From Candidatus Tectimicrobiota bacterium (GTDB lineage: Bacteria; Tectomicrobia; Entotheonellia; Entotheonellales; Entotheonellaceae), in assembly GCA_026005175.1 (NCBI GenBank), contig BPKO01000001.1, forward strand, positions 310,001 through 374,000: 64,000 nt of DNA. Reading direction: 5' to 3'. Positions 40,828-57,108 of the stretch are shown piece after piece (within the stretch, counting starts at the first letter, position 1; each line of letters starts with the position of its first letter). Below the pieces are notes generated by a model. That model was not told the DNA's origin and did no database searches. It saw only the letters and a list, made by a program, of their open reading frames with translations. Both the position numbers and the translations under genes were made by a program.

Positions 40828-40856
40828 TAGACAGGCCTTCCAGGGCTATCTATAAT
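40828..40856 (+). promoter_or_regulatory. Promoter of the MetE-like/Liv gene run
   Basis: TAGACA (40828-40833), 17-base spacer, TATAAT (40851-40856), about 55 bases before ATG 40915. It is the best promoter upstream of the long co-directional run to 53777. Confidence 0.6.
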
Positions 40857-40914: not shown

Positions 40915-41940
40915 ATGAGTGCCCCCCTGCTGCCCACCTCAGTGATCGGCAGCTACGCCCTGCCCAGCTGGCTGTGGCTGGCGCGCGAGGCGATGGCTGC
41001 CGGGCGCTTTGGCGAGCGAGACATTTCGGAAACGCTGGAAGACGCCACCCGCATTGCCATTGCCGACCAGCTCGAGGCCGGCATCGACGTGGTGAGCGAC
41101 GGCGAGATGCGGCGCGTCAACTTCATCCAGGGCTTTTACAGCCGCATCCAGGGCCTCGAAGTGCTGCCGCCGGCGCGCAAGATGGGGGCGCCGCACTGGG
41201 ACACCGAGCCGCCCTTTCGCGCCGTCGAGCGCCTAAGTGCCCCCGAAGGGCTGGGCATCGTGGAGGACTTCGTCCTGGCGCGCACCCTTACCGACCGCCC
41301 CCTCAAAGCCACCTGCCCCGGGCCGCTTACCCTCTCCATTCCGATCCGCCGCGGCCAGGTCTATGCCAGCCGCGAGGCGCTGCTTGAGGACCTCATGCAC
41401 ATCGTGCGCGCCGAGCTCGAGCGACTCGTAGAAGCCGGCGCCGAGCTCATTCAGCTCGACGAGCCCAACTTTGCCATGCGCCGCGACGACCCCCGTGCCT
41501 GGGTGGAGCTCTTCAACGCCACCGTGGAAGGCATCCAGGCCAAAATCGCCCTGCACATCTGCTTTGGCAACCTCAACAACAAGCCTTTCATCTCGCCGCG
41601 CTCTTACGCCCACCTTTTCCCTTACGTGCTGGAGGCCAGAGCCGACCAGCTGCTGCTCGAGTTTGCCAACCGCGAGCTGGCCGAGCTCGACTTGTGGCAG
41701 CGCTTTCCCAGCGACAAGGCCCTTGGCGTGGGGGTGATCGACGTCAAGGCGTACCGCATTGAAACTCCCGACGTGGTGGCCGAGCGCCTGCGCCGCGCCC
41801 TGCAGTACGTGGCGCCCGAGAAGCTCATCGTGGTGCCCGACTGCGGCTTTTGGGAGACGCCGCGCTGGATCGCGCGCGGCAAGCTGCGGGCCATGGTCGA
41901 AGGCGCACGCTTGGTGCGCCGCGAGCTGCAAGGCGGGTGA
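40915..41940 (+). CDS. MetE C-terminal-like methyltransferase
   Basis: 341 residues from ATG 40915 (GAGGAG upstream). TSVIGSYALPSWLWLAREAM is the GS-x-x-R/P-type opening of the MetE/UroD fold; DVVSDGEMRRVNFIQGFYSR, ELIQLDEPNFAMR, ALHICFGNLNN (His and Cys zinc ligands), LLLEFANRE and VVPDCGFWETPR (third Cys) follow. The catalytic zinc site is therefore complete. The protein has only the C-terminal half of MetE, like archaeal and core MetE proteins, so the methyl donor may differ. It heads the Liv-type transporter run, 49 bases before the first binding protein. Confidence 0.75.
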   Translation: MSAPLLPTSVIGSYALPSWLWLAREAMAAGRFGERDISETLEDATRIAIADQLEAGIDVVSDGEMRRVNFIQGFYSRIQGLEVLPPARKMGAPHWDTEPPFRAVERLSAPEGLGIVEDFVLARTLTDRPLKATCPGPLTLSIPIRRGQVYASREALLEDLMHIVRAELERLVEAGAELIQLDEPNFAMRRDDPRAWVELFNATVEGIQAKIALHICFGNLNNKPFISPRSYAHLFPYVLEARADQLLLEFANRELAELDLWQRFPSDKALGVGVIDVKAYRIETPDVVAERLRRALQYVAPEKLIVVPDCGFWETPRWIARGKLRAMVEGARLVRRELQGG

Positions 41941-41989
41941 GGGGTCTGGGTGGGAGGCGGGCTGGTTATACGGAAAGGAGGAACTCAAG

Positions 41990-43186
41990 ATGCCACGCAA
42001 CGCGAGCTTGATCGGCCTGACGCTGGCCGCGGTGATGCTGCTGGGCTTCGTTGGCGGTTTTGCCCAGGAGGCGGCCCCTATCCGCATCATGGCCCTCACG
42101 TCCCTGAGTGGCCCCTTTGCCCCGTGGGGGATCAACGTGCGTGACGGCATGCAGCTGGCCGCCGAGGAGGTCAACGCTGCCGGCGGCGTGCTAGGGAGGA
42201 AGGTGGCCATTGTGGAGCGTGACACCCGCAACAGCCCGGACGAGGCCATGACCCACCTGCGCGCCGGGGTAGAGCGCGAAGGCATCGTGGCTGCCGGGGG
42301 CATCATCTCCAGCGGCGTGGGGCTGGCCGCTTCGCGGGTAGCCGAGGAGCTGAACGTTCCTCTGTTTCTCACCATGTCGGGATCGCACAAGATCCTCAGG
42401 AAAGATAGCCGCTATACGTTCCGGACTTGCCTGGTAGCGGCGACAATGACCACGGGGCCTTTTGCCGCTTTCATTCAGGAAAAAGGCATCTCGCGTGCCG
42501 GGGCCATCGTTGCCGACTATGCCTGGGGTCATGCCGTTCAGGAAGCGATCGAGCGTCACATCGCATCGCTGCCCGGGGTGGAGGTCCGTATCGAAGTGGC
42601 ACCGGTGCCGGAAAAGAACTTCACTACGTACTTGCGGCGGCTTCAGCGCCTCGATCCTGAGCTGTTGATCTTGCTAGGGCACCCCCCGGGGGCACCGGCA
42701 GCGGCCAAGCAAGCCCTCGAGCTGGGGATTGGCCAGTTCATCTCTGGGGCTATTTATCCTACCGAGGTCTGGGTTGAGCGCGGGGGCAGGCCGATTTTTG
42801 GCCGTGTCGTGGAGTACTCGTGTGCCGACTACGAAGATGCCGCTTACCAGCAGCTGGCGGCAAAGTTCCACGCCAAAGTGGGCCGCTTCTTTGACTTCAA
42901 CGCCTTTTCGGGCTACGCCATCGTCAAGCTGATGGCCGATGCCGTGCAGCGCACCGGCACCACCGACCCCAAGGCCCTTGCGGCGGCGGTGCGCACGGGA
43001 CGCTTCGTGCAGCCCGGCTACGCCTTCCCCTTGTCGTATACGGAGTGGGGCGAGCTCAAGGAAGCCACGCCGATCCTGTACACCTTTGAGGCGGGCGACC
43101 CGGGGGCGATCAATCCAGGGGCCGACTGGCGCCCGCGGGTCCTCTTCCGCTCGCCGCCGCTCGCCCCGTACGTGCCTGAGGAGTAG
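41990..43186 (+). CDS. Liv-type ABC importer, binding protein 1
   Basis: 398 residues behind AAAGGAGGA. Signal peptide SLIGLTLAAVMLLGFVGGFA, cleavage near AQE. Type I periplasmic fold: IMALTSLSGPFAPWGINVRD, AAEEVNAAGGVLGRKVAIVE, GGIISSGVGLAASRVAEELN, ISRAGAIVADYAWGHAVQEA. Such proteins bind amino acids, but in catabolic clusters also aromatic or other carboxylates. First gene of transporter 1, followed by LivG, LivF, LivH and LivM homologues. Confidence 0.85.
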   Translation: MPRNASLIGLTLAAVMLLGFVGGFAQEAAPIRIMALTSLSGPFAPWGINVRDGMQLAAEEVNAAGGVLGRKVAIVERDTRNSPDEAMTHLRAGVEREGIVAAGGIISSGVGLAASRVAEELNVPLFLTMSGSHKILRKDSRYTFRTCLVAATMTTGPFAAFIQEKGISRAGAIVADYAWGHAVQEAIERHIASLPGVEVRIEVAPVPEKNFTTYLRRLQRLDPELLILLGHPPGAPAAAKQALELGIGQFISGAIYPTEVWVERGGRPIFGRVVEYSCADYEDAAYQQLAAKFHAKVGRFFDFNAFSGYAIVKLMADAVQRTGTTDPKALAAAVRTGRFVQPGYAFPLSYTEWGELKEATPILYTFEAGDPGAINPGADWRPRVLFRSPPLAPYVPEE

Positions 43187-43196
43187 GGGAAGGCAG

Positions 43197-43919
43197 GTGG
43201 GGGCTCTCCTGACCGCCACCGGCATCACCAAGTACTTCGGGGGCTTGCCTGCCCTGCAGGACGTCAGCTTTGACGTCCTGCAGGGCGAGATCTTCGGCAT
43301 CATCGGCCCCAACGGTGCCGGCAAGAGCACCCTGCTGCACGTGATCAGCGGCGTCGTGGTCCCCACCCGCGGCAGGGTACTCCTCAAAGGCCGGGACATC
43401 ACCGGTCTCAAGCCGCACCGCATCTGCCGCCTCGGCGTGGCCAGGGTGCTCCAGACGCCGCGGCCGTTTCCCAGCCTGACCGCCTTGGAAAACGTGGCCG
43501 TGGGCGCCATTTTTGGCCGGCGCGACGGCGGCTCCCAGGCCTGGCAGCACGCCGCGGATGTCTTGGCGTTTCTGGGGCTGCAGGATAGGGCCGCGGTGGC
43601 GGTGGGCAAGCTAAACCTGCAGGAAAAAAAGATGATCGAGGTGGCCAGGGCGCTGGCCACCGGCCCCGAGCTGCTCCTGCTCGACGAAGTGATGGGAGGT
43701 CTCAACCCCACCGAGGTCGAGGAGACCATGCACCTGATCCGCAAGATCCGGGACGCTTACGGCGTCGCCATCGTCTGGATCGAACACGTGATGCGCGCCA
43801 TCATGGGCATCGCGGAACGGGTCATGGTGCTCAACTACGGGGAAGTGCTCGCCCTGGGCTCGCCGGCCGAGGTGGCGCGAGACCCCCGGGTGGTGGAGGC
43901 CTATCTGGGGAAAGCGTGA
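43197..43919 (+). CDS. livG: Liv-type ABC importer 1, ATPase (LivG-like)
   Basis: 240 residues from GTG 43197, with GGGGAAGG just before. IIGPNGAGKSTLLHVISGVV is the Walker A region, RVLQTPRPFPSLTALENVAV contains the Q-loop of LivG type, and EKKMIEVARALATGPELLLLDEVMGGLNP covers the signature (weak: LNLQEKKM instead of LSGGQ) through Walker B. The altered signature is normal for LivG proteins. Overlaps LivF by one base (TGATG). Confidence 0.85.
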   Translation: MGALLTATGITKYFGGLPALQDVSFDVLQGEIFGIIGPNGAGKSTLLHVISGVVVPTRGRVLLKGRDITGLKPHRICRLGVARVLQTPRPFPSLTALENVAVGAIFGRRDGGSQAWQHAADVLAFLGLQDRAAVAVGKLNLQEKKMIEVARALATGPELLLLDEVMGGLNPTEVEETMHLIRKIRDAYGVAIVWIEHVMRAIMGIAERVMVLNYGEVLALGSPAEVARDPRVVEAYLGKA

Positions 43920-44641
43920 TGGCGCTGCTTCGCGTGCAGGCCCTGGAGGTGGCCTACGGGGAGCTGACCGTGCTGCGCGACGTCAGCCTGGAGGTGGCTG
44001 CGGGCGAGGTGGTGGCGATTGTGGGCTCTAACGGAGCGGGCAAGACCACCCTGCTCAAGACCATTGCCGGCCTGCTGCGGCCGCACCGCGGGCAGATCCT
44101 CTACGACGGCCGGCGCATAGACGGCTGGCCAGCGCACCGGCTGGTGCGCCTGGGCATCGCGTATGTGCCGGCCGAGCGCGAGCTCTTCCCGCAGATGACG
44201 GTGCGGGAAAACCTGGAGCTGGGGGCGTACTTGCACCCGCAGCACACTGCAGAGCGCCTTGCCTTTGTCTTTGACCTCTTTCCCCGCCTGGGCGAGCGCC
44301 AGCGCCAGCTCGCCGGCACCCTGAGCGGCGGCGAGCAGCAGATGCTGGCTATCGGCCGCGGGCTCATGTCGCGCCCGGCGGTGCTGCTGTTGGACGAACC
44401 CTCCACCGGGCTGGCCCCGCTCCTGGTGGCCGAGATGTACCGTAAACTGCAGCAGCTCAAAGAGGAGGGGCTGACTCTTCTCCTGGCCGAGCAGCAAGTG
44501 CCCATGGCCCTGTCCCTGGCCGAGCGGGCCTACGTGCTCGAAAGCGGCCGCATCCGCTTGCAGGGCCAGGCGCAGGCGCTCCTCGAGGAGCCTGCCATCA
44601 AGAAGGCTTACCTCGGTGTGGCTGATCGCCTTACTGATTGA
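43919..44641 (+). CDS. livF: Liv-type ABC importer 1, ATPase (LivF-like)
   Basis: 240 residues. IVGSNGAGKTTLLKTIAGLL (Walker A), IAYVPAERELFPQMTVRENL (Q-loop), LAGTLSGGEQQMLAIGRGLM (signature) and AVLLLDEPSTGLAPLL (Walker B) are canonical. A GTG three bases earlier is an alternative start. Overlaps the permease gene by 26 bases. Confidence 0.85.
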   Translation: MALLRVQALEVAYGELTVLRDVSLEVAAGEVVAIVGSNGAGKTTLLKTIAGLLRPHRGQILYDGRRIDGWPAHRLVRLGIAYVPAERELFPQMTVRENLELGAYLHPQHTAERLAFVFDLFPRLGERQRQLAGTLSGGEQQMLAIGRGLMSRPAVLLLDEPSTGLAPLLVAEMYRKLQQLKEEGLTLLLAEQQVPMALSLAERAYVLESGRIRLQGQAQALLEEPAIKKAYLGVADRLTD

Positions 44642-45479
44642 CGGCATCGTCCAGGGCCTGCAGTTCTCCCTGCTCGCCGTGGGCCTCACCCTGATTTTTG
44701 GCCTGGGCGGGGTGCTGAACCTGGCGCACGGGCAGTTTGCCGTGATTGCCGGCATGGTGACCGCATTGCTCCTCGATCAGGGCCTGGACCCCGTGCCGGC
44801 CAGCGCCGCCGGCGTCTTGGCCACCGGGCTTTTTGGCTTCCTTGTTGACCGCTCCCTGCTCTTGCCGGCCTACCGCTACAGCGGCGAGACGCGGCTGCTT
44901 TTGGGCCTGCTGCTCACCCTGGGGCTCTCCTTTGTCATCGAGGGCTTCCTGAACTACAGCGTGCCCTACGTGGCCCTCTCCCTGCACTTGCCGTGGCCGT
45001 CGGTGCGCCCGCTGGGCATTCCCGTGCGCACCGCCAGCATTGTTGTCTCCCTGCTGGCCATTTTGGCGCTGGGCGCGCTGCTGCTGTTTCTCCGGCGCAC
45101 TCCGCTGGGCAAAGCCATCCGCTCGATCATGCAAAACGAGGTGGGGGCAGCGCTCTGCGGCATCGACCCGGCACGGATGCGGACGCTCATTTTCACCCTG
45201 GGCGCGCTGCTGGCCGGCCTAGTGGGCATCACGCAGGGGCTTTTTGCCTCGCTGGGGCCGGAGATGGGGCTGGAGCTGACCGTCTTTGCCCTCATCGTCA
45301 CCACCGTGGGCGGGGTGCGCAGCATTCACGGCACCATTGCCGCCGGCGTCCTGCTGGGCATCGTCCACGCCTTTGCCAGCTTCTACATCGGCGCTTACGT
45401 TACCTTTATCATCTTACTGGCCACCGCCGCCCTGACCATTCTCTGGCGGCCCAGCGGGCTTCTGGGGTACTGGACATGA
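44616..45479 (+). CDS. livH: Liv-type ABC importer 1, permease (LivH-like)
   Basis: 287 residues from GTG 44616, inside the LivF gene. LAVGLTLIFGLGGVLNLAHG is the family signature (LNLAHG), ending at about residue 38; about eight spans follow. RSIMQNEVGAALCGIDPARM is the cytosolic coupling loop and VGGVRSIHGTIAAGVLLGIV ends the family core. Overlaps LivM by four bases. Confidence 0.85.
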   Translation: MWLIALLIDGIVQGLQFSLLAVGLTLIFGLGGVLNLAHGQFAVIAGMVTALLLDQGLDPVPASAAGVLATGLFGFLVDRSLLLPAYRYSGETRLLLGLLLTLGLSFVIEGFLNYSVPYVALSLHLPWPSVRPLGIPVRTASIVVSLLAILALGALLLFLRRTPLGKAIRSIMQNEVGAALCGIDPARMRTLIFTLGALLAGLVGITQGLFASLGPEMGLELTVFALIVTTVGGVRSIHGTIAAGVLLGIVHAFASFYIGAYVTFIILLATAALTILWRPSGLLGYWT

Positions 45480-46429
45480 GCACCACCGGCTCCTGGCTGC
45501 GCTACGCCACCCTCCCCAGCGTGGGGCTCGTCTTGGCCTGCCTGCCGCTGGCCATCCTGGGCAGTGCGCTCTATGCCAGGCTGGCGACGCAAATGCTCGC
45601 CTACATTGCCTATACGGTGGCATTTAACCTCATCTTTGGCCACACCCGGCAGCTCTTCCTCTGCCTGGGGGCCCTGGCCGGCGCGTCGGCCTACTTCTCG
45701 GTGATCCTCACCCGCGAGCTGGGGCTTTCCCCCTGGCTGACCGTGCTCTTGGGCACCGCCCTGGCGGCGGCGCTGGGCACGCTGTTTAGCTATATCTCGG
45801 TGCGCCGCGGCCTGGGGGTAATCTTCCTGGGCATCGTCACCCTTGCCTTTTCCCTTATGTTCGAAAACCTGCTGCTGGGGCTGCGCGATCTTACCCGGGG
45901 CGAAACGGGCATCGTGACCAAGGGGCTGGGATTCGGCATCCTGGGAGAGCGGTGGGCGAGTTACTACGTCTTTTTGGGCTTGCTGCTGCTCGCCCTTGCC
46001 CTTTACCAGGCGCTGGTCAGCTCAAAAATCGGCCTGGCACTGCGCGCCCTCAGCGACGACGAGCTGGCCGCCGAGCTGGCGGGCATTAACGTGGTGCGCT
46101 ACAAAGTCCTGGCGGCCGGCGTGGGCTCGGCGCTGCTGGGGGTGGTGGGGGCTTGCTACGCCTACTACAACGGCTACGTCAACCCGTCGATTTTTTCTCT
46201 GGTGGGCGTAGACGTGGTGGTGCTGGTGATGCTCCTTTTTGGCGGCATGGGGACCCTGCTCGGACCGGTGCTGGGCGGCGCCGTGTTTACCGTGGTCAAC
46301 GAGCTGGTGCGGCCGCTGGGGCCGCTCAACCTCCTGGTATACGGCGCCCTGCTCATCGTGCTCTTCCTGGCCTTTCGCGAGGGGCTGGTGGTGGCCCTGC
46401 GCCGCGCCACCGGCTTGCCCCTGCCGTAA
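45476..46429 (+). CDS. livM: Liv-type ABC importer 1, permease (LivM-like)
   Basis: 317 residues, about nine spans. AYTVAFNLIFGHTRQLFLCL is the LivM start, LRALSDDELAAELAGINVVR the coupling loop and MLLFGGMGTLLGPVLGGAVF the G-G-x-G-T-x-x-G-P-x-x-G-A motif. Completes transporter 1; the acyl-CoA ligase gene follows after 11 bases. Confidence 0.85.
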   Translation: MSTTGSWLRYATLPSVGLVLACLPLAILGSALYARLATQMLAYIAYTVAFNLIFGHTRQLFLCLGALAGASAYFSVILTRELGLSPWLTVLLGTALAAALGTLFSYISVRRGLGVIFLGIVTLAFSLMFENLLLGLRDLTRGETGIVTKGLGFGILGERWASYYVFLGLLLLALALYQALVSSKIGLALRALSDDELAAELAGINVVRYKVLAAGVGSALLGVVGACYAYYNGYVNPSIFSLVGVDVVVLVMLLFGGMGTLLGPVLGGAVFTVVNELVRPLGPLNLLVYGALLIVLFLAFREGLVVALRRATGLPLP

Positions 46430-46440
46430 AGGACGAGGCT

Positions 46441-48390
46441 ATGCGCGACGAGCGAGAGGTCTATGCCACGCTGCGGCGCAAGACGGCGCCCCTGGTGCTG
46501 CTCGAGCGGGCGGCGGCGACGCCCACCGCGGTGGCCTACCGGGCCAAGAAGCGCGGCATTTACCACGAGCGCACCTGGGCGCAGCTGCGCGACCTGGTGG
46601 CCGCCTGTGCTTTGGGGTTGCAGCACCTTGGCTTGCGGCGCGGAGAGCGGCTGGCGATCATGGGGGAGGCCTGCGAGGAGTGGATGCTCACCGACCTGGC
46701 GGCTCAGGCGCTGGGCGCCATCACCTACGGCATCTATCCCACCGCCTCGCCGGCCGAGCTGGCCTACCAGCTGCGCGACGGCGGGGCGGCGATTTTCGTG
46801 GCTGAAGACCAGGAGTACGTCGACAAGGTCTGGCCGCTTCTCGGCCAGCTGCCCGCCCTCAGGTGGGTGGTGGTCATCGACGCCACGGCGCTGTTTCTCT
46901 ATGCCCATCCCCGGCTTATCACCTTTGCCGAGCTGCTGCGCCGGGGCAAGGAAGCCCTGGCGCAGCAGCCCGAGGCTTTCGAAGCCCACGTGCGGGCCTT
47001 GGATCCCCGCGACCCGGCCTTCATCGTGTACACCTCCGGCACCACGGGAGACCCCAAAGGGGCGCTGGTGCGCCACGGCGCCCACCTGGCTGCTGCCTAC
47101 ACCCTGCTCGACCACTACCCGCAGCTGCGCCAGCGCCCGCACCGCACCGTGGTCTTCCTGCCGCTGTGCCACGTGCTGGGCCGCGACGTGGCCATTACCC
47201 TGCCGCTGCTCAGCCGCCTCGTGCCCCACTACGGGGAGCGCCGCGCCGAACTGGTGCAGACGCTGTTCGAAGTGGCCCCCACGGTGCTCTTCCTGGTACC
47301 GCGCTATTTGCAGAAGTTTGCGGCGCAGGTCCTGGTGGGGATCGAAAACTCGACGCCTCTCAAGCGCCGCCTGTACCGGCTGGCTCTGCAGGCCGGGCGG
47401 CGCTACGTCCGCCGGCGCTGGCAAGGGCAGGCTGGCGGGGCGGCCGCCCTGTGGTACGCCTTCTGGCGCTGGCTGGTCTTTCGCCCTATGCTCGCCAAGC
47501 TGGGCCTTGACAAGCTGGCGCTGGCCCTCTCCGGTGGCGCCGCCTTGCCGCCAGAAGTGATGGCCCTGTGGCAGATCTACGGCGTTGACTTGGTGGAAAT
47601 TTACGGCCAGACAGAAACCGGCGGCGCCATCATCAGCGGCCAGCCGGCCGGCTTCCCGCGGCCAGGCAACGTGGGGGTGCCGCCGCGGGGCTGGCAGGTG
47701 CGGCTGGACTTTCAGGGCGAGATCCTGGTGCGGGGCGAGGACCTCTTTGCCGGCTACTGGGGCAAGCCGCAGGCCACCCGGGAGGTCCTCGATGCCGAGG
47801 GCTGGCTGCACACCGGCGACGTGGGCGCCTGGGACGAGCGCGGGCAGCTGCGCATCATCGACCGTGCCCGCGACTTTCTCGTCACCGCCGGCGGCAAGAC
47901 GCTGAGCCCCACCGCCATCGAAAACCTGCTGCGCGCCAGCCCCTATATCAGCGAAGCGGTGGTCTTTGGCCACCAGCGCAAGTACCTCACCGCCCTCATC
48001 GAGATCGACTACGACACGGTCTCCGACTGGGCCCGCCTGCACAACGTGCCCTATACGGGCTTTACCAGCCTGGCCACTCGGCCCGAAGTGCAGGCCCTCA
48101 TCCAGGCCGAAGTCGACAAAGCCAACGCCCAGCTGGCGCGAGTGGAGCAGATCAAGGCCTTCCGCATTCTGCCCCAGGAGCTGGATCCAGAAGCCGAAGG
48201 GGAGCCCGTAACCCCGACGCGCAAGGTGAAGCGCCAGCAAATGTACGACAAGTTCAAAGCGCTGGTCGAGTCGATGTACAGCCGCGAAGAAGAGGCGCTG
48301 CTGGCGGCGCACCTGGGAGAAGTCTTGGAAGCCGCAGCGGGGCAGCGCCGCAGCGCGCAACCGCCGTCTTCTGCCAGAGGAGAGGTCTGA
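46441..48390 (+). CDS. AMP-forming acyl-CoA ligase
   Basis: 649 residues. IVYTSGTTGDPKGALVRHGA is the AMP-binding P-loop (about 200), VEIYGQTETGGAII the second motif, GWLHTGDVGAWDERGQLRII the third, and KTLSPTAIENLLRASPYISE the hinge to the C-terminal domain, all typical of long-chain or aryl acyl-CoA synthetases. It makes a CoA thioester from a carboxylic acid and ATP. It sits between two complete Liv-type importers and overlaps the next gene by one base, so it probably activates what they import. Confidence 0.85.
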   Translation: MRDEREVYATLRRKTAPLVLLERAAATPTAVAYRAKKRGIYHERTWAQLRDLVAACALGLQHLGLRRGERLAIMGEACEEWMLTDLAAQALGAITYGIYPTASPAELAYQLRDGGAAIFVAEDQEYVDKVWPLLGQLPALRWVVVIDATALFLYAHPRLITFAELLRRGKEALAQQPEAFEAHVRALDPRDPAFIVYTSGTTGDPKGALVRHGAHLAAAYTLLDHYPQLRQRPHRTVVFLPLCHVLGRDVAITLPLLSRLVPHYGERRAELVQTLFEVAPTVLFLVPRYLQKFAAQVLVGIENSTPLKRRLYRLALQAGRRYVRRRWQGQAGGAAALWYAFWRWLVFRPMLAKLGLDKLALALSGGAALPPEVMALWQIYGVDLVEIYGQTETGGAIISGQPAGFPRPGNVGVPPRGWQVRLDFQGEILVRGEDLFAGYWGKPQATREVLDAEGWLHTGDVGAWDERGQLRIIDRARDFLVTAGGKTLSPTAIENLLRASPYISEAVVFGHQRKYLTALIEIDYDTVSDWARLHNVPYTGFTSLATRPEVQALIQAEVDKANAQLARVEQIKAFRILPQELDPEAEGEPVTPTRKVKRQQMYDKFKALVESMYSREEEALLAAHLGEVLEAAAGQRRSAQPPSSARGEV

Positions 48391-49559
48391 TGCAGCACAG
48401 GACTTGGCACCGACTGGGGCTTACGCTGGCGGCCGTGGCCGTGCTGTTCGCCGTGGCCCAGGCACAAGAGCCCTACCGGGTGGGATTGAGCGCGGCGCTC
48501 ACCGGGCGCGGCGCTGAGACTTATGCCCCGGTGAGCGAGGCGATTCGCCTCTACGTCGCGCGCCTCAACGCCCGCGGCGGCATCCACGGCCATCCGGTAG
48601 AGCTGCTCGTGGAAGACAACGTTGCCGAACCATCACGCGCCGCGGCGCACGCCAAGAAGTTTGTCTCCCAGGATGGCGTCTTGCTGATGCTGAACGCCAG
48701 CCTGTCGAGCACCTACCCGCCCATGATCCACGAGGCCAAGCGGGCCGGCGTGCCCCTTTTCTTCGCCGGCAGCGTCTGCCCGCGCGAGGTGTATCCGCCG
48801 GCCGACCCGCTGCTCTTCTGCTCCACCGCCTTTGCTGCCCGCTACGACAGCGAATTTGCGCTTGACTTCATCAAAGAGACGGCGGCGGGGCCGGTAAAGC
48901 TGGCCCTGGTGTCGATGAGCATTCCCATTTCCCGCGGCGAAGTTGACTATGCCGAGCAGCTCGCCCCATCTCGCGGCATTGAGCCGGTCTCCAACCAGTC
49001 GATCCCGCCGCCCACCCCCAACTACGCCCCCTTTGCCGCCAAAATCAAAGCCGCTGGCGCCACCTGGGTCTACGCCTGGGCCCCCTGGGTGACGCAGGTT
49101 AAAACGTTTGAAGCCTTGCGGCAGCTCGGCTGGCAGGGCAAGTTCCTGGCCTACGCCCACATCAACGCCGAAGAGGAGCTGGCCCGCCTGCAGGACGAGC
49201 ACTTCTACGTCTTTGGCGCCAACGCCTTCTTCTCCCACAACCTGCCCGTGCACCAGGAAATTCTCCAGGCTGCCGCGCAGGGCACCATGCACCCGCCCAC
49301 GCAGCTGGCCGAGGGCTGGGTGGCGGGCATGGTGCTGGAAGCCGTGCTGGCCGGCGTCTCCTGGCCGCCTACCCCGGCCAAAGTGCTGGCCGCCATGAAC
49401 CGGGTGCGTGTCGACACGCGGGGGCTGCGCGGCGGTCCCCTCGAGTGGACGCCCACCAACCACTTTCGCACCACTCATTACTACCGCGTCTACCGCTGGG
49501 ACCGCCGGCAGCAGGGCGCGGTGCTGGCCAAAGACTGGACGGCGGTGGCCATCAAGTAA
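48390..49559 (+). CDS. Liv-type ABC importer, binding protein 2
   Basis: 389 residues starting in TGATG with the ligase stop. Signal peptide LGLTLAAVAVLFAVAQAQ. RVGLSAALTGRGAETYAPVS, YVARLNARGGIHGHPVELLV and VFGANAFFSHNLPVHQEILQ fit the type I binding fold. It is clearly distinct from binding protein 1, so the two importers probably have different ligands. Confidence 0.85.
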   Translation: MQHRTWHRLGLTLAAVAVLFAVAQAQEPYRVGLSAALTGRGAETYAPVSEAIRLYVARLNARGGIHGHPVELLVEDNVAEPSRAAAHAKKFVSQDGVLLMLNASLSSTYPPMIHEAKRAGVPLFFAGSVCPREVYPPADPLLFCSTAFAARYDSEFALDFIKETAAGPVKLALVSMSIPISRGEVDYAEQLAPSRGIEPVSNQSIPPPTPNYAPFAAKIKAAGATWVYAWAPWVTQVKTFEALRQLGWQGKFLAYAHINAEEELARLQDEHFYVFGANAFFSHNLPVHQEILQAAAQGTMHPPTQLAEGWVAGMVLEAVLAGVSWPPTPAKVLAAMNRVRVDTRGLRGGPLEWTPTNHFRTTHYYRVYRWDRRQQGAVLAKDWTAVAIK

Positions 49560-49565
49560 GCGGCC

Positions 49566-50438
49566 ATGCAGCTCGTGGTCAACACCCTGGTGCTGGCCGC
49601 CACGTACGCCCTGATTGCCTGCGGCTACGTGCTCGTCTACCGCGTCAGCCGCGTGCTCAACCTCGCCCACGGCGAGCTGATGATGCTGGGCGGCTACTTG
49701 TTGCTGACCACCGCCTCGCTCTTTGCCGGCCGGCCGCTGCTGGCGGTTGCGGTGGCGCTGCTGCTGAGCCTGGGCCTGGGCCTGCTGGTGTACGTCGTGC
49801 TCATGCGCCACTTCACTGGCGAGTCGGTGCTGGCGGCGGTGCTGGTCACCATTGCCCTGGGCATCTTGCTGCGCGGCCTGGCGATTCTTCTCTGGACCGC
49901 CCAGCTGCAATACCCCCTGGTGGCCCTGGGGTGGCAAAATCCGGCGCTGTCGCTGGGGGGAGGGGCGGTGATCTCGGCCGCCGGCCTGCTGACCCTGGCC
50001 GCGGTGGCGGTGGTCTACGGCGGCCTGCTGCTGTTTTTGCGCTATACCCCCTGGGGCATCCGCATGCGCGCCGCGGGGGAAAATCCCCTGCTGGCCGCCC
50101 AGCGCGGCGTGGCCCTGCCGCAGGTGCTGGCTTTGGCCTGGGGCCTGGCCACCCTTAGCGGCGGGCTGGCGGGCATGCTGCTGGCCTGCGACTCTGGCAT
50201 CGACGGCACGGCGGTGATCGTGGGGCTAAAGGCCTTCCCGGTGGCGCTGGTGGGCGGCCTGGACAGCCTGAGCGGGGCGCTCGTGGGGGCACTGCTGGTG
50301 GCCGCGGCCGAGGTGCTGGCCATCGCCTACCTCGATCCCCTGGTGAGCGACGTGGTGCCGTTTTTCGTGCTGCTGGCCATGCTCCTGCTGCGCCCCTGGG
50401 GGCTGTTTGGCCGCCGCGAGGCGTTTGAAAGGGTATAG
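49566..50438 (+). CDS. livH: Liv-type ABC importer 2, permease (LivH-like)
   Basis: 290 residues. ALIACGYVLVYRVSRVLNLA then HGELMMLGG is the LivH signature; MRAAGENPLLAAQRGVALPQ is the coupling loop and PVALVGGLDSLSGALVGALL the conserved terminal motif. Six bases after the binding-protein stop. Confidence 0.85.
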   Translation: MQLVVNTLVLAATYALIACGYVLVYRVSRVLNLAHGELMMLGGYLLLTTASLFAGRPLLAVAVALLLSLGLGLLVYVVLMRHFTGESVLAAVLVTIALGILLRGLAILLWTAQLQYPLVALGWQNPALSLGGGAVISAAGLLTLAAVAVVYGGLLLFLRYTPWGIRMRAAGENPLLAAQRGVALPQVLALAWGLATLSGGLAGMLLACDSGIDGTAVIVGLKAFPVALVGGLDSLSGALVGALLVAAAEVLAIAYLDPLVSDVVPFFVLLAMLLLRPWGLFGRREAFERV

Positions 50439-50440
50439 GG

Positions 50441-51508
50441 ATGGCGTACGCCAGCGGCTACTTCAAGACGAGCTACGGCGCCGAGCTGGCGCTGGTGGAA
50501 ACGCGGCTGCAGTGGGCAGCCCTGGCCGCCTTGGGGCTGGGGCTGGGGCTTTTTCCGCTGCTGGCGTCCCCCTTTGCCCTCGACCTGGCCAACCAGGTGC
50601 TGCTGGCCGTAATCGGCGCCGTAGCCCTCATGCTGCTGACCGGCTACGCCGGGCAGATCTCGCTGGGGCACGCCGGCTTGCTTGCTGCCGGTGCGTTTAC
50701 CACCGGCATCCTGGCCGAGGAGGCGGGCGCGCCTTTCTGGCTCACCGTGCCCGCTTCAGGGGCGGTGGGGGCCGTGTTGGGCCTCGTCTTTGGCCTGCCG
50801 TCGCTGCGGCTCAAGGGGCTGTACCTGGCGGTGAGCACCCTGGCCCTGCACTTCATCGTCGCCTTCCTCGGCAGCGAATACGAGACCCGGCACGGGTTTT
50901 CCACCGGCATCCTGCTCGACAGCCCGCGCCTGGGTCCCGTGGTGCTGGACGATGCGCGCCTGTGGTACGGGCTGCTCTTGGCCGTCGCCGCCGCCGTTTT
51001 TCTCTTTAGCCGCAACCTGCTGCGCACGCGCACCGGGCGAGCCTGGATTGCCCTGCGCGACCGCGACGTGGTGGCAGCAGCGCTGGGCATTCCCGTTGCT
51101 GCCGCCAAGCTCTCGGCGTTTGTGGTGAGCTCGGTCCTCACCGCCCTTGCCGGCTGTCTTTTTGCTTACTACCGCGGCTTTGTCTCCATCGAGGCCTTTT
51201 CCCTCTTTACCACCATTGAGTACGTGGCCATGCTCATCATCGGCGGCCTGGGCTCGCTGCTGGGGGCGGTGCTGGGGGCGGTGTTCGTCGTCACTTTTCC
51301 TTACCTGATCGACCTGGCGGTGGACTTGCTGCCGGTGCCGGCGCGCCTGTCGACGTACGTGTTTGCCGTCAAGTACGCGGCCTTCGGGCTGATCATGCTG
51401 CTTTTCTTGCTGCTTGAGCCCGAAGGGCTGCTGGGCATCTGGCGGCGCGTGCGGGATTACTTTGTCCTCTGGCCCTTTCGCTACCGCCCGCTGGCGGGGA
51501 GGAGCTAA
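50441..51508 (+). CDS. livM: Liv-type ABC importer 2, permease (LivM-like)
   Basis: 355 residues. LLTGYAGQISLGHAGLLAAG is the LivM motif (GQ-x-S-L-G-H), WIALRDRDVVAAALGIPVAA the coupling loop, and MLIIGGLGSLLGAVLGAVFV the G-G-x-G-S-x-x-G motif. Begins two bases after LivH 2. Confidence 0.85.
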   Translation: MAYASGYFKTSYGAELALVETRLQWAALAALGLGLGLFPLLASPFALDLANQVLLAVIGAVALMLLTGYAGQISLGHAGLLAAGAFTTGILAEEAGAPFWLTVPASGAVGAVLGLVFGLPSLRLKGLYLAVSTLALHFIVAFLGSEYETRHGFSTGILLDSPRLGPVVLDDARLWYGLLLAVAAAVFLFSRNLLRTRTGRAWIALRDRDVVAAALGIPVAAAKLSAFVVSSVLTALAGCLFAYYRGFVSIEAFSLFTTIEYVAMLIIGGLGSLLGAVLGAVFVVTFPYLIDLAVDLLPVPARLSTYVFAVKYAAFGLIMLLFLLLEPEGLLGIWRRVRDYFVLWPFRYRPLAGRS

Positions 51509-51509
51509 G

Positions 51510-52304
51510 GTGGTTTTGCTCCAGGTCGAAAAGCTTGAGGTGGTCTACCACCAGGTCCTTACTGCCGTGCAAGGGGTGTCGCTCGCGGTGCGCCAGGGGC
51601 AGATCGTTGCTTTGCTGGGCACCAACGGTGCCGGCAAGACCACCACCCTGCGTGCCGTCTCTGGCTTCATCGGCCTTGACGACGCGCGTGTCACGGCAGG
51701 GCGCATCCTGTACCGGGGAGAGGACATCCATGGCTTGCCGCCGCACGCGGTGGCGCGCCGTGGTGTGGTCCTGGTGCCGGAGCGCGACAAGGTCTTCGAG
51801 AGCTTGACGGTGCTGGAAAACCTGGAAGTGGCCCGGCGCTGTCCCCACCAGGAAGCCCGGCGCCTGTACGACTTGGTCTTTACGTTCTTTCCGCAGCTGG
51901 CGGCGGTGCGCCACCGCCAAGCAGGGTATCTGAGCGGCGGCGAGCGGCAAATGCTCGCCATTGCCAGCGCCTTGCTCTGCCGGCCCCAGTTGCTGCTGGT
52001 CGACGAGCTCTCCCTGGGCCTGGCGCCGCGGCTGGTGCAGGCGCTGATGGCGCAGTTGCAGGCGATCCGCCGCGAGCTCGACCTCACCGTGCTGCTCGTC
52101 GAGCAAAATGCGGCCGCTGCGCTCGCAGTGGCCGATTACGGCTACGTGATGGAAAACGGCCGCGTTGTCCTCGACGGCGAGCCGTCGCGCCTGAGGGCGC
52201 ATCCCGACATCCGGGAGTTTTACCTGGGACACGGCGAGCAGCAGACCCGCCGGAGCTACCGCGACGTGAAGCAGTACCGCCGGCGGCGGAGGTGGTATGG
52301 CTGA
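51510..52304 (+). CDS. livF: Liv-type ABC importer 2, ATPase (LivF-like)
   Basis: 264 residues from GTG 51510 with GGGGAGGAG upstream. LLGTNGAGKTTTLRAVSGFI (Walker A), VVLVPERDKVFESLTVLENL, GYLSGGERQMLAIASALLCR (signature) and LLLVDELSLGLAP (Walker B, Glu followed by Leu). A basic C-terminal extension (RSYRDVKQYRRRRRWYG) is unusual. Overlaps LivG 2 by eight bases. Confidence 0.85.
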   Translation: MVLLQVEKLEVVYHQVLTAVQGVSLAVRQGQIVALLGTNGAGKTTTLRAVSGFIGLDDARVTAGRILYRGEDIHGLPPHAVARRGVVLVPERDKVFESLTVLENLEVARRCPHQEARRLYDLVFTFFPQLAAVRHRQAGYLSGGERQMLAIASALLCRPQLLLVDELSLGLAPRLVQALMAQLQAIRRELDLTVLLVEQNAAAALAVADYGYVMENGRVVLDGEPSRLRAHPDIREFYLGHGEQQTRRSYRDVKQYRRRRRWYG

Positions 52305-53073
52305 GGGAGCCCACCTGGTGGTGCACGACCTCGACCTGGCCTTTGGCGGCCTGCAGGTCTTGCACCGCGTCTCCCTGGAAGTGCGGCCGGGCGAGCTGGT
52401 GGCCCTCATTGGCCCCAACGGCGCTGGCAAGACCAGCGTCCTCAACTGCATCAGCGGCCTCTACCGCCCCAGCGGCGGCCGCATCCTGGTGGACGAGGTG
52501 GACATCACCGGCTGGCGCGCCGACCGCGTGGCCCGCCTGGCGGTGGCCCGAACTTTCCAGCACGGCGAGCTCTTCCGCCACCTCACGGTGCTTGACAACC
52601 TGCTGGTGGCGCGCCACCGCCACATCCGCAGCACCCTGCTGTGGGACGGCCTCTTCTGGGGCCGCGCGCGGCGGCAGGAAATCGTGCAGCGGCAGGCCGT
52701 AGAGGCGGTGCTGGAATTCATGGAGCTGGAGCGCTACCGCAAGACGCCGGTTGCCCATCTGCCCTTCGGCCTGCAGAAACGCGTGGGCTTTGCCCGCGCC
52801 CTGGCCCTGGAGCCCCGGGTGCTGCTGCTGGACGAACCCTCGGCAGGCATGCAGCGCGAGGAAAAAGAAGACCTGGCGCGCTTCCTCCTGCGCATCAAGC
52901 ACGAGCTGGGCATCACCCTGCTCTGGGTAGAGCACGACATGCAGATGGTGGCCGATCTTGCCGAGCGCCTCTACGTGCTCAACTACGGGGAGAACGTGGC
53001 GAACGGGCCACCCGCCCAGGTACTGGCCGACCCGCGCGTCGTCGAGATGTACCTGGGCGCCACCATGGGGTAA
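52297..53073 (+). CDS. livG: Liv-type ABC importer 2, ATPase (LivG-like)
   Basis: 258 residues. LIGPNGAGKTSVLNCISGLY (Walker A), VARTFQHGELFRHLTVLDNL (Q-loop), HLPFGLQKRVGFARALALEP (LivG-type weak signature) and VLLLDEPSAGMQREEKEDLA (Walker B). Completes transporter 2. Confidence 0.85.
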   Translation: MAEGAHLVVHDLDLAFGGLQVLHRVSLEVRPGELVALIGPNGAGKTSVLNCISGLYRPSGGRILVDEVDITGWRADRVARLAVARTFQHGELFRHLTVLDNLLVARHRHIRSTLLWDGLFWGRARRQEIVQRQAVEAVLEFMELERYRKTPVAHLPFGLQKRVGFARALALEPRVLLLDEPSAGMQREEKEDLARFLLRIKHELGITLLWVEHDMQMVADLAERLYVLNYGENVANGPPAQVLADPRVVEMYLGATMG

Positions 53074-53096
53074 GATGGAAGGCGAGGAGAAGGCCG

Positions 53097-53777
53097 ATGG
53101 CGCTGGCGATCAAAGTGGTGACGGACACGGGGGAAGAACTCCGGGAACCCTATCTGCTGCGCATCGGGGGCTGGACCGAGGAGCGCTACTTTGCCGAGGC
53201 CCCGGAAACGCGCCTGGCGGAGTTTGAAGACGGAGACCTCATCGTGCCTTCTCCTGCAAACATCCGGCATCAAGATCTCGTGAGGTTCCTCACCTTCCTG
53301 CTCTGCGGGTTTCTGAGCGCCCGGGGCCTTGGCAAGGTGTTTAACGGCCCGGCGGTGGTGCGGCTGCGCCCGGGGCTGGACTACGAGCCCGACATTTTCG
53401 TCGTCCTGCGGGAGCACTTGCACCGGCTCGAAGCCCAGTACTTTTCAGGCGCCCCTGACCTGGTGGTGGAAGTCATCTCTCCGGGCGGGCGCAACTACGA
53501 CTTGCGCACCAAAGCCCAGCACTACCGTACGCACGGGGTCCCCGAGTACTGGGCTGTGGATCCCGAGGCCTGCGAGCTCTACCAGCACCTCCTGCCCGCA
53601 GACCCGGCGGCGCCTTATGCGTGCCGCGTCTATGCCAGCGGCCGCCTGGCCAGCGCCGTCCTGCCTGGCTTCTGGCTCGAGGTGTCCTGGCTGTGGCAAG
53701 AACCCCTGCCGGCAGAAAAACCGCTGCTCGACCGCCTGCTTGCCGAAGCCCAGCCGCAGGGCGCCAGCGGCAGTTAG
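53097..53777 (+). CDS. Uma2-family (DUF820) putative endonuclease
   Basis: 226 residues. EDGDLIVPSPANIRHQDLVR, YEPDIFVVLREH (Asp), PDLVVEVISPGGRNYDLRTK (E-V-x-S in place of E-x-K) and GVPEYWAVDPEACELYQHLL are Uma2 signatures, a PD-(D/E)XK-fold family of unknown role. 23 bases after LivG 2; it may simply ride at the end of the transporter run. A GAGGAGA stretch precedes the ATG. Confidence 0.8.
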   Translation: MALAIKVVTDTGEELREPYLLRIGGWTEERYFAEAPETRLAEFEDGDLIVPSPANIRHQDLVRFLTFLLCGFLSARGLGKVFNGPAVVRLRPGLDYEPDIFVVLREHLHRLEAQYFSGAPDLVVEVISPGGRNYDLRTKAQHYRTHGVPEYWAVDPEACELYQHLLPADPAAPYACRVYASGRLASAVLPGFWLEVSWLWQEPLPAEKPLLDRLLAEAQPQGASGS

Positions 53778-53808: not shown

Positions 53809-54933
53809 CTACAGCCCGATTTCTTGCGCCACCACTTCCCGGTGCACGTCGGCGTCGCCGTAGAGCACCTCGCCCCGCTTGGCGCGGCGAAAGTAAAGCT
53901 GCAGGTCGTATTCCTTGGTAAAGCCGATGCCGCCGTGGATCTGGTGGGCGCTGGCACAAACGCGGCGGCAGGCGTCGCTGGTCCAGGCCTTGGCCATGGC
54001 GATCTCCTTGGTGGCATCGAGTCCCTTGGCCAGGCACCAGGCCGCGCGGTACGTAATGAAGCGCGAGCCGTCGACGTCGACCACCATGTCGGCGCACTTG
54101 TGCTTGATGGCCTGAAACGAGCCGATGGGACGCCCGAACTGCACGCGGCTCTTGGCGTACTCCACCGACATGTCAAACGCCACCTGGGCGATGCCCACCA
54201 GCTCGGCGCAGGTGGCCACGGTGGCGTAATCGAGGGTCTTGCGCACGATGGGCCAGCCTTCGTGCAAGGGGCCGAGAAGGGCGTCGGCGCCCACTTCCAC
54301 GTTGCGGAACTCTACCTCGAACTGGCGGTCCGAGGCGATGGTGGCCAGCGGCGTCACCGTGATGCCCGGCGTCTGGCGCGGCACCAGCAGCAGGCTGATG
54401 CCCGGCTCGGCATCGCGGGTGCGCGCCGCTACGAGCAGCTCGTCGGCGGTGTGGGCGTTGAGCACGAAGAGCTTGGTGCCGTTGAGGACAAAGCCCCCGC
54501 CTTGCGGCGTGGCGCGGGTGGTGATCCCCTCGGGCGTGTACGTGGCGCTGGGCTCGGTGAGGGCCAGGGTGCCCAGCAAGTTGCCGGCGGCAATGGCCGG
54601 CAGGTAGCGCCGTTTCTGTGCTTCACTGCCGGCAAACAGCAGCGGCAGGCCAAAGGTGAGCACGGTCGAGTGAAACGGGCTGGGGAGGAGCGCCCGGCCG
54701 AACTCTTCCATCAGCACGCACAGTTCGAGGAAGCTGTAGCCCGAGCCGCCGTACGCCTCGGGAAACATGAGGCCGATCCAGCCCAGCTCGGCCATTTGCT
54801 TCCACAGCTGCGGGCTGTAGCCGATCTCGTCCTCCTCCATGGCCCGCACGTGCGTCGTCGGGCATTCCTGGCGCAGGAAGTCGCGGGCGCTGCTCTGGAG
54901 CAGCTGCTGCTCTTCGGTGAGCGTCAAGTCCAT
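53809..54933 (-). CDS. Acyl-CoA dehydrogenase, second of a pair
   Basis: 374 residues. LTEEQQLLQSSARDFLRQEC and PEAYGGSGYSFLELCVLMEE start the fold; LALTEPSATYTPEGITTRAT and FVLNGTKLFVLNAHTADELL line the FAD and substrate site; CASAHQIHGGIGFTKEYDLQ then LYFRRAKRG closes it. It starts 15 bases after the partner gene. Paired, unequal ACAD genes often make alpha2-beta2 enzymes where one subunit lacks the catalytic Glu (as in steroid catabolism); I cannot tell which subunit this is. Confidence 0.85.
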   Translation of the reverse strand: MDLTLTEEQQLLQSSARDFLRQECPTTHVRAMEEDEIGYSPQLWKQMAELGWIGLMFPEAYGGSGYSFLELCVLMEEFGRALLPSPFHSTVLTFGLPLLFAGSEAQKRRYLPAIAAGNLLGTLALTEPSATYTPEGITTRATPQGGGFVLNGTKLFVLNAHTADELLVAARTRDAEPGISLLLVPRQTPGITVTPLATIASDRQFEVEFRNVEVGADALLGPLHEGWPIVRKTLDYATVATCAELVGIAQVAFDMSVEYAKSRVQFGRPIGSFQAIKHKCADMVVDVDGSRFITYRAAWCLAKGLDATKEIAMAKAWTSDACRRVCASAHQIHGGIGFTKEYDLQLYFRRAKRGEVLYGDADVHREVVAQEIGL

Positions 54934-54948
54934 CTCGCGCCTCCTCTT

Positions 54949-56127
54949 TTAACGCGGCAGGCCCAGGCCGCGCTCGGCGATGATGTTGCGCTGGATCTCC
55001 GAGGTGCCGGCAGCGATGGTGCGCGACACGGCGGTCAGGTACAGGCGCTCGATTTTTCCTTTGAGCGGCGCCCAGCGGCTGTTGAACTCGAGCTGGCCGT
55101 AAAGGCCCAGCAGCTGCATGCCCACCTGCGCCAGGCGCTGCATCAGCTCGCTCGTGAAGAGCTTGTTGGCCGGGGACTCCGGTCCGGGAATCTCGCCGCG
55201 CGCCTGCGTGCTCGCCACGCGGTAAGCCAGGCAGCGCGCCACGTCGATTTCCACGGCGATCTGTGCCAGCCGCTGCCGCACCAGGGGATCCTCGGCCAGG
55301 GTGCGGCCGTGGCGCTTGGTGAGCTTGGCGTAGCGGATGAGGTCGTTGAGGATGCGCTGCGCCTGCGCCGGCGCCTCGATGGCGGTGCGCTCGTACGACA
55401 GGGTGGTGGTGGCGATGTACCAGCCCTGGTTTTTCTCGCCCAGCAAGGCGTCCTTGGGGACGCGCACGTTCTCGAAGAAGATCTCGTTAAAGCCCTTGGT
55501 GCCGGCCATGTTGATAAGGGGCTTGACGGTAATGCCCGGCGTCTTCATGTCCACCAGGAAGTACGAAATGCCCTTGTGCTTGGGGGCATTGGGGTCGGTG
55601 CGGGCGAGCAAGAAGCACCAGTCGGCATAGTGGGCGTAGCTCGACCAGATCTTCTGGCCGTTGATCACCCACTCGTCGCCGTCCTGCACGGCGCGCGTCT
55701 GTAGCGACGCCAAGTCCGAGCCGGCGTTGGGCTCGCTGTAGCCCTGTGCCCACAGCACTTCGCCTTTGGCAATGCCGGGGAGGTGGCGTCGTTTTTGCTC
55801 CTCGGTGCCGTAGCGAATAATGGTGGGGCCCAGAAACTTGGGGCCGTTGCTGCCAATGATCGGCGCATCGGCAATGGCCAGTTCTTCCTGGAGAATAAAG
55901 TACTGCCAGAACGACCAGCCCAGCCCGCCATACTCCGGAGGCCAGTGCGCTGCCAGCCAGCCCTTGGCGCCCACTTTGCGGGTAAACTCCCGCGCCACTT
56001 GGATGTACTCGTCGGATTCCTTGTCGAGCACCAGCGTCTCGTTCCAGCCTTTGGGGAGCTCTGCTTGCAGAAAGTCTCGGATTTCTTGGCGAAACGCCTC
56101 TTCTTCTGGCGACCAGCTAAAGTCCAT
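54949..56127 (-). CDS. Acyl-CoA dehydrogenase, first of a pair
   Basis: 392 residues. SWSPEEEAFRQEIRDFLQAE, PPEYGGLGWSFWQYFILQEE, WAQGYSEPNAGSDLASLQTR and WVINGQKIWSSYAHYADWCF are typical, and the C-terminus TIAAGTSEIQRNIIAERGLG carries the FAD-contacting G-T-S-E-I-Q-R. It oxidises an acyl-CoA to the enoyl-CoA with FAD. Transcribed with the 374-residue partner and divergent from the enoyl-CoA hydratase gene. Confidence 0.85.
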   Translation of the reverse strand: MDFSWSPEEEAFRQEIRDFLQAELPKGWNETLVLDKESDEYIQVAREFTRKVGAKGWLAAHWPPEYGGLGWSFWQYFILQEELAIADAPIIGSNGPKFLGPTIIRYGTEEQKRRHLPGIAKGEVLWAQGYSEPNAGSDLASLQTRAVQDGDEWVINGQKIWSSYAHYADWCFLLARTDPNAPKHKGISYFLVDMKTPGITVKPLINMAGTKGFNEIFFENVRVPKDALLGEKNQGWYIATTTLSYERTAIEAPAQAQRILNDLIRYAKLTKRHGRTLAEDPLVRQRLAQIAVEIDVARCLAYRVASTQARGEIPGPESPANKLFTSELMQRLAQVGMQLLGLYGQLEFNSRWAPLKGKIERLYLTAVSRTIAAGTSEIQRNIIAERGLGLPR

Positions 56128-56198
56128 CGCCCGTACTCCTCGCCCGAGTCGGTGTCGTTCTCTGCGCCCACACGCGGGAGGGCACTTGCTTACCGCCC

Positions 56199-56228
56199 TT
56201 TATAGCGCGGGAAGCGCCGCGGGGTCAA
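56199..56228 (-). promoter_or_regulatory. Promoter of the acyl-CoA dehydrogenase pair
   Basis: Minus-strand TTGACC (56228-56223), 18-base spacer, TATAAA (56204-56199), about 70 bases before ATG 56127. Confidence 0.5.
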
Positions 56229-56310
56229 GCTGCCCCGCGCTTGCGCTGCAGCGGCGTCTGGTGTATGAGTGGAGCTTGCCGCCCCTGCCCCGCAAAGAGG
56301 GAGAGTGTCC

Positions 56311-57108
56311 ATGGCCTTTCACAAGCTCCGCTACGAAGTGGCCGACGGCGTGGCCACCGTGACCCTGAACCGCCCCGAGCGCCTCAACGCCCTTGACTAT
56401 GCGCTGCGCGACGAGCTGCTGGCGGCTTTGCAGCAAGCGGCCGCAGACCCCCAGGTGCGCGCCCTCATTCTTACCGGGGCCGGCCGGGCCTTCTGCGCCG
56501 GGGCCGACCTTCACGACGTGCTGGTGCGGGGCTTTGACATGGACCCGCGCACCCGCGAGCAAGAAGAAGTGCGGGGGTTCAATGCCCTGACGCAGGCCCT
56601 TCGCGCCCTGGAAAAACCGGTCATTGCGGCGGTAAACGGGGCGGCGGTGGGCGGCGGCTGCTGCCTGGCCCTGGCCGCCGACATCCGCCTGGCTTCGAGC
56701 GAGGCGCGCTTTGGCATGGTCTTTGTGCGCCTGGGCCTTTCCTCGGCGGACATGGGAGGGACGTTTTTACTGCCGCGGCTCATCGGCCTGGCGCATGCCA
56801 GCGAGCTCTTGCTCACCGGCGAAATCATCGACGCCGCCCGCGCCGAGCGCCTGGGGCTGGTCAACCGCGTGGTGGCCCCCGAAGAGCTATTGCCGCAGGC
56901 GCGCCAGCTGGCAGCCCGTCTGGCTGCCGGCCCGCCCATCGGCCTGGCGCTTACCAAGCGGGCCATCAACCGCGCCCTGGGACTGGAGCTGGCGGCACAC
57001 CTCGACTACGAAGCCTACGTGCAGAGCGCCTGCATGCTCACTGCCGACCACCGCGAAGGGGTGGAGGCCTTCTTGCAAAAGCGCGCCCCGCAGTTTCGCG
57101 GCGGCTAG
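56311..57108 (+). CDS. Enoyl-CoA hydratase/isomerase family protein
   Basis: 265 residues. VTLNRPERLNALDYALRDEL, LTGAGRAFCAGADLHDVLVR (first oxyanion strand) and AAVNGAAVGGGCCLALAADI (second oxyanion loop) are the crotonase signature; RFGMVFVRLGLSSADMGGTF holds the residue usually acidic in hydratases, here followed by Asp. LVNRVVAPEELLPQARQLAA and LTKRAINRALGLEL end the fold. It would hydrate or isomerise enoyl-CoA from the adjacent dehydrogenases. Confidence 0.85.
   Translation: MAFHKLRYEVADGVATVTLNRPERLNALDYALRDELLAALQQAAADPQVRALILTGAGRAFCAGADLHDVLVRGFDMDPRTREQEEVRGFNALTQALRALEKPVIAAVNGAAVGGGCCLALAADIRLASSEARFGMVFVRLGLSSADMGGTFLLPRLIGLAHASELLLTGEIIDAARAERLGLVNRVVAPEELLPQARQLAARLAAGPPIGLALTKRAINRALGLELAAHLDYEAYVQSACMLTADHREGVEAFLQKRAPQFRGG

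Follow-up and report, generated by a model that had tools for sequence, protein, structure and literature searches.

A run of 13 genes was analysed at positions 40915-53777 of a 64,000-nucleotide stretch of DNA (the window; positions 310,001-374,000 of contig BPKO01000001.1, GCA_026005175.1, Candidatus Tectimicrobiota bacterium), where two Liv-type importers lie together with an acyl-coenzyme A (CoA) ligase and a MetE-like protein. All genes are on the plus strand in the order originally noted (Table 1), and the Pfam domains across the run are the MetE catalytic domain, Peripla_BP_6, ABC_tran, BPD_transp_2, AMP-binding and Uma2. When GTG 51510 was taken as the start of the second LivF gene and ATG 53097 as that of the Uma2-family gene, the intergenic gaps were, from 5' to 3', 49, 10, -4, -26, -4, 11, -1, 6, 2, ~1, -8 and ~23 bases (range -26 to +49), confirming the head-to-tail arrangement with overlaps or short gaps that had been claimed for the run. 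Between 40700 and 53900 only one sigma-70-like match was observed, compared to 0.9 expected in shuffles. A single transcript for all 13 genes is a plausible prediction.

Table 1. Features of the gene run and its downstream flank; positions refer to the window, and identities are those in the related cassette loci.
Feature	Position	Strand	Remarks
Promoter-like site TAGACA-17-TATAAT	40828-40856	+	11/12 bases matched; ~60 bases 5' of the MetE-like gene
MetE-like zinc methyltransferase, 341 amino acids	40915-41940	+	PF01717 across full length; catalytic domain only
Importer 1 substrate-binding protein (SBP1)	41990-43186	+	PF13458
Importer 1 LivG-type ATPase	43197-43919	+	ABC_tran and BCA_ABC_TP_C
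Importer 1 LivF-type ATPase	43916-44641	+	ABC_tran; top NCBIfam model is LivF
Importer 1 LivH-type permease	44616-45479	+	BPD_transp_2
Importer 1 LivM-type permease	45476-46429	+	BPD_transp_2
Acyl-CoA ligase, 649 amino acids	46441-48390	+	AMP-binding and AMP-binding_C_3; motifs YTSGTTG, YGQTE, TGD
Importer 2 substrate-binding protein (SBP2)	48390-49559	+	PF13458; 52-59% identity
Importer 2 LivH-type permease	49566-50438	+	BPD_transp_2; ~64-69% identity
Importer 2 LivM-type permease	50441-51508	+	BPD_transp_2; ~62-70% identity
Importer 2 LivF-type ATPase	51510-52304	+	ABC_tran; ~62-70% identity
Importer 2 LivG-type ATPase	52297-53073	+	ABC_tran and BCA_ABC_TP_C; ~57-65% identity
Uma2-family protein	53097-53777	+	PF05685; ~23 bases 3' of the set-2 LivG
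Two acyl-CoA dehydrogenases	53809-56127	-	Downstream of the run, opposite strand
Enoyl-CoA hydratase	56269-57108	+	Beyond the two acyl-CoA dehydrogenases

Both gene sets encode Liv-type (HAAT) ABC importers, each with a substrate-binding protein (SBP) of the Peripla_BP_6 type, two BPD_transp_2 permeases and two ABC ATPases, one of which carries BCA_ABC_TP_C. The identity between the sets was 40% for LivG, 44% for LivF, 30% for LivH, 36% for LivM and ~26% for the SBP. Since this divergence (26-44% identity) is too large for a recent duplication and the gene order differs, a tandem duplication of one importer was ruled out, in agreement with the original prediction.

The conservation of the run was followed with the ligase. 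A scan of the named genomes gave 23 loci, 21 with at least 58% identity, L029 with 44% and L031 as a weak match; two further loci were added by order-wide searches, resulting in 23 cassette loci with ligases that are ~57-66% identical. In these 23 loci outside the window the order ligase-SBP2-LivH-LivM-LivF-LivG is contiguous as far as the contigs extend, and the best match of the SBP and of each Liv gene was set 2 of the window. One locus (L021) deviates in having the SBP ahead of the ligase, and the loci L014 and L016 are near-identical in sequence. The ligase had been described as bracketed by two importers. That it stands there as an independent gene was ruled out, because it heads the conserved importer 2 cassette. 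The suggested coupling of uptake and activation in one unit is strongly supported for the ligase and importer 2 by the conservation of the six contiguous genes. The hosts are mostly alpha- and betaproteobacteria, and the cassette is rare: of two orders searched, one had it in 2 of 199 genomes and the other in 4 of 399. The relatives compared were three genomes of the window organism's own family and one further genome of its class; neither the cassette nor SBP1 was found in the three family genomes. On the ligase tree the window sequence and one from Rhodospirillaceae formed a group of modest support (88/80), and a lateral transfer of the cassette is likely.

Next to the cassette, a methyltransferase-family gene was found in 21 of the 23 loci, which was MetE-like in 17 and LigM/DesA-like in four. 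The MetE-like neighbour is usually divergent from the cassette with a TetR gene in between, and a TetR gene is nearby in most loci. This partner MetE has ~370 amino acids, and the L028 copy reached 355 bits on NF005085 (cut-off 313). The partners form an orthologous group: most cassette copies share ~50-77% identity with that of L028 and are well separated from the other MetE-like proteins of the same genomes, which show 40-47% identity to it. In the LigM-type loci (L013, L023, L024 and L030) a GCV_T-domain protein occupies the position of the MetE-like gene. The neighbour in L030 scored 383 bits against LigM, and its top models were DesA (517/800 bits) and LigM (461/580 bits), both under the curated cut-off. 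It belongs to the wider family of the tetrahydrofolate-dependent O-demethylases LigM and DesA, a relative of which fills the methyltransferase position in these four loci. In L026 the contig stops at the ligase, and a LigM-like gene and a TetR gene are located at another contig end of the same genome (G075), as expected if the assembly broke there.

The partner MetE is absent from the LigM-type genomes G072, G073 and G079 and from G075, whereas G064 combines a LigM-like gene beside the cassette with a partner MetE at another site. Four LigM genomes fall into one clade of the ligase tree and L013 lies apart; the LigM loci are thus at two places on the tree, and therefore MetE and LigM were swapped at least twice. 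The chance that a gene of either the MetE-like or the LigM-like type lies within 3 kb was ~1% per genome, which is a guide only since the loci are related. The strongest hint of a methyl group on the imported acid is that two methyltransferase families replace each other at the same site. In searches of the literature on ligase-Liv operons, on LigM with a ligase and a transporter and on MetE-type O-demethylation, the cassette was not described; as far as this literature shows, its constant association with MetE-like or LigM-like neighbours is unreported.

Taken together, we propose, with slightly less than even confidence, that the run consists of two modules and that an imported methylated acid is activated by the ligase and demethylated by MetE-like or LigM-like enzymes. 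Module B (46441-53073) would be the import-and-activation cassette, in which SBP2 catches a carboxylic acid in the periplasm, LivHMFG carry it in and, once in the cytoplasm, it is converted by the ligase into a CoA thioester. Module A (40915-46429) would combine the MetE-like zinc methyltransferase with a second importer of the same type, and both modules would probably be read from one promoter. The acid is plausibly methylated, for example methoxylated, because module B elsewhere almost always adjoins a MetE-like or LigM/DesA-like gene. The methyl group would be removed and enter the one-carbon pool of the cell, with folate as the acceptor for LigM and probably a zinc-bound thiol such as homocysteine for the MetE-like proteins. 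The MetE-like protein at the head of the run may take the demethylating role in this organism, and a related substrate may enter through importer 1. The more specific idea that the cassette-associated MetE-like proteins are demethylases using a zinc-bound thiol, in the role that LigM-type enzymes have elsewhere, and that the window protein is an independently recruited subfamily, is considered unlikely.

The MetE-like protein of the window has kept the zinc residues H, C, E and C, as had been noted, and the homocysteine residues S13, E64 and D182, judged by the residues that PMC7857596 lists for these sites. The folate-binding N-terminal domain is missing and TIGR01371 gave 93/930 bits, so the protein is not a two-domain MetE. 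Its nearest solved structure was 3rpd with 153 bits, which is named MesD in PMC7857596; with 3rpd standing in for the MesD reference protein, this score falls short of the high similarity expected of a MesD, for which ~72% identity is the benchmark (PMC7857596). MesX (PF08908) had no match in the window genome, which is 77% complete, and the control genomes were equally silent. Like the core methionine synthases MesA-MesD (PMC7857596, PMC7005905) the window protein consists of the catalytic domain only and retains the zinc and homocysteine residues, but it differs from them by its low score to 3rpd and by its location in a catabolic import run. A copy with 58% identity was found in genome G052, and the window genome itself has paralogues with 54% and 49% identity.

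It is quite possible, though short of probable, that the MetE-like genes beside the cassette encode ordinary core methionine synthases, which use methyl groups freed elsewhere and do not demethylate the imported acid. The conserved zinc and homocysteine residues are consistent with this, as is the production of methionine from corrinoid-bound or other methyl donors by the characterised relatives with only the catalytic domain (PMC7857596, PMC7005905), and in L112 an array of MetE-like genes adjoins a MetF-type reductase. However, a salvage enzyme would be expected alongside LigM, yet LigM replaces the MetE-like partner, and several paralogues are present in many genomes, seemingly more than methionine synthesis needs.

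Importer 1 was seen in none of the 23 related cassette loci, and no relative of SBP1 at E <1e-30 was found in any other cassette-bearing genome. The part of the original prediction that joined importer 1 with the ligase in uptake and activation was therefore not upheld, and importer 1 appears to be an unrelated addition to the cassette. The single close relative of SBP1 that was found (61% identity) is located at a contig end of G035, the only genome of its phylum in the comparison; a TIR-domain protein is encoded upstream of it (L082:4952-6487). About 27 Liv-type binding proteins were counted in the window genome, therefore one more Liv set is commonplace there and two adjacent sets are little surprise. 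These findings fit two independent import operons side by side, with modules A and B handling different compounds and the MetE-like protein unrelated to the ligase here, which we regard as a realistic possibility without being the probable one. The window MetE-like protein points in the same direction, since it is only ~26% identical to the partner MetE of the cassette and hence of a different subfamily. On the other hand, the genes are nowhere more than 49 bases apart, no promoter-like site separates the modules, the habitual partner of the cassette elsewhere is a MetE-like gene, and one of the 8 MetE-like genes would come to lie at most 6 kb from the cassette in only ~2% of random placements.

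Besides the difference in subfamily, a number of observations weigh against the proposed import and demethylation of a methylated acid. The window MetE-like gene is 4.5 kb away from the ligase with importer 1 in between, and close paralogues occur in other catabolic clusters, one with an enoyl-CoA hydratase and a MaoC-like gene and one in a methylcitrate-type operon. The usual neighbours of the cassette, an adjacent TetR gene with the orthologous partner MetE (NF005085) or a LigM-like gene, are absent at the window run: no TetR gene lies within the 13 genes, no LigM-like gene was found in the window genome and the nearest proteins to the partner MetE in this genome, at ~36-41% identity, are not close orthologues. 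The ligase nearest to that of the window on the tree is in L009, the one locus of the 23 that has neither a MetE-like nor a LigM-like neighbour. The literature searched contained no case of a MetE-like protein demethylating an acid, and such proteins, where their homocysteine sites are intact, may do no more than produce methionine. Finally, when the fold of SBP2 (AlphaFold model, pLDDT 89) was compared with the PDB, binders of amino acids, urea, amides and aromatic acids tied, and therefore no ligand is named.

The demethylation that had been suggested for the window enzyme is thus backed indirectly by the neighbours of the cassette elsewhere and not by the subfamily of the window protein itself. 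As this protein heads importer 1 and has paralogues elsewhere, its link to the ligase is therefore only suggestive. It may have taken the place of the cassette partner independently, or it may be associated with importer 1 alone.

The binding proteins and the ligase gave some indications of the substrate. In LivJ-type binding proteins a Glu or Asp residue holds the amino group of the amino-acid ligand. In distant alignments, the Glu of the LIVBP motif PEGV corresponds to Ala256 of SBP2 and to Ala, Ser or Gly in all SBP2 relatives, and SBP1 has Ala or a gap at this position. The lack of an aligned acidic residue in both proteins speaks against branched-chain amino acids, and the imported substrate is probably a carboxylic acid and not an amino acid. 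That both importers serve branched-chain or other amino acids and that the ligase is incidental is accordingly very unlikely, even though the families are annotated as branched-chain amino acid transport and, among solved structures, the closest in sequence to SBP1 has leucine bound. In all relatives the ligase directly adjoins the importer 2 genes, and set 1 missed all NCBIfam Liv equivalog cut-offs (LivF 253/441, LivG 196/362, LivH 76/379 and LivM 84/366 bits).

In the profile comparison of SBP2, structures with bound hydroxybenzoate or vanillate were among the top matches. The Liv-type (HAAT) aromatic-acid importers of Rhodopseudomonas palustris are of the same five-part type and SBP fold, and their SBPs were solved with 4-hydroxybenzoate, vanillate, p-coumarate and caffeate (PDB 4evs, 4eyg, 4f8j, 4eyq). 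SBP2 is just 15-20% identical to them, and here, in contrast, the ligase is inside the transporter operon, with a methyltransferase gene alongside in the relatives. A non-methylated fatty, dicarboxylic or alicyclic acid is unlikely as the substrate. In that case the acyl-CoA dehydrogenases and the enoyl-CoA hydratase downstream of the run would complete a beta-oxidation-like route. The best match of the ligase was the long-chain type (FadD11 model), far below the curated cut-off, and the top models of both dehydrogenases include the pimeloyl-CoA dehydrogenase pair PimD/PimC, also below cut-off. However, the dehydrogenase genes are on the opposite strand and not conserved with the cassette, and the methyltransferase neighbours would be left unexplained.

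Many bacteria carry sets of MetE-like genes with only the catalytic domain, which are labelled methionine synthase without a test. A fixed neighbourhood with an acid importer and a ligase, where a known O-demethylase type can replace the MetE-like gene, offers such genes a concrete and testable function: they would help to degrade methylated acids from plants or lignin and feed the one-carbon pool. The neighbourhood is also a route to the substrate of an uncharacterised importer family.

At the end of the run, the Uma2-family gene had no counterpart in any of the related cassette loci and is therefore probably a passenger. Upstream, the run is flanked by a divergent zinc alcohol dehydrogenase. 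The acyl-CoA dehydrogenases and the enoyl-CoA hydratase at 53809-57108 could provide later steps for an acyl-CoA.

Other Liv operons with a related ligase among the Liv genes were observed on contig C12 of the same genome and in G052 (L083). Their ligases are just 37-42% identical and the gene order is different; unlike the window run, they have no MetE-like neighbour in the stretch read. On contig C12 (L094:6729-13527) the order is LivG, ligase, LivH, further genes and LivF, with a ligase that is 37% identical to that of the window.

Further MetE-like genes were seen in several contexts. On contig C1 at ~506327-512000 (L087:7325-13036) a paralogue of the window gene belongs to what looks like an operon of the methylcitrate type, together with genes for aconitase, PrpF and citrate synthase. 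On contig C6 (L092:1317-9560) a MetE-like gene near a Liv set adjoins a methylmalonyl-CoA-mutase gene, and the zinc glutamate is not conserved in its product. Tandem arrays of three to four MetE-like genes were observed at L112:5695-9305, L113:4074-8783 and L114:3712-9639, and one copy of the L113 array scored 588 bits on NF005085. The MetF-type reductase next to the L112 array has a matching gene in L114 (60% identical), and the L113 array is accompanied by LigM-like, SDR, MaoC and CoA-transferase III genes, which suggests a catabolic role of the arrays linked to one-carbon metabolism. In L112 (10310-11860) and L114 (10606-12090) the arrays adjoin a conserved protein of ~500 amino acids without a Pfam match (82% identical), which contains VFDAGVGDGSVLARV, reminiscent of an S-adenosylmethionine-dependent methyltransferase.

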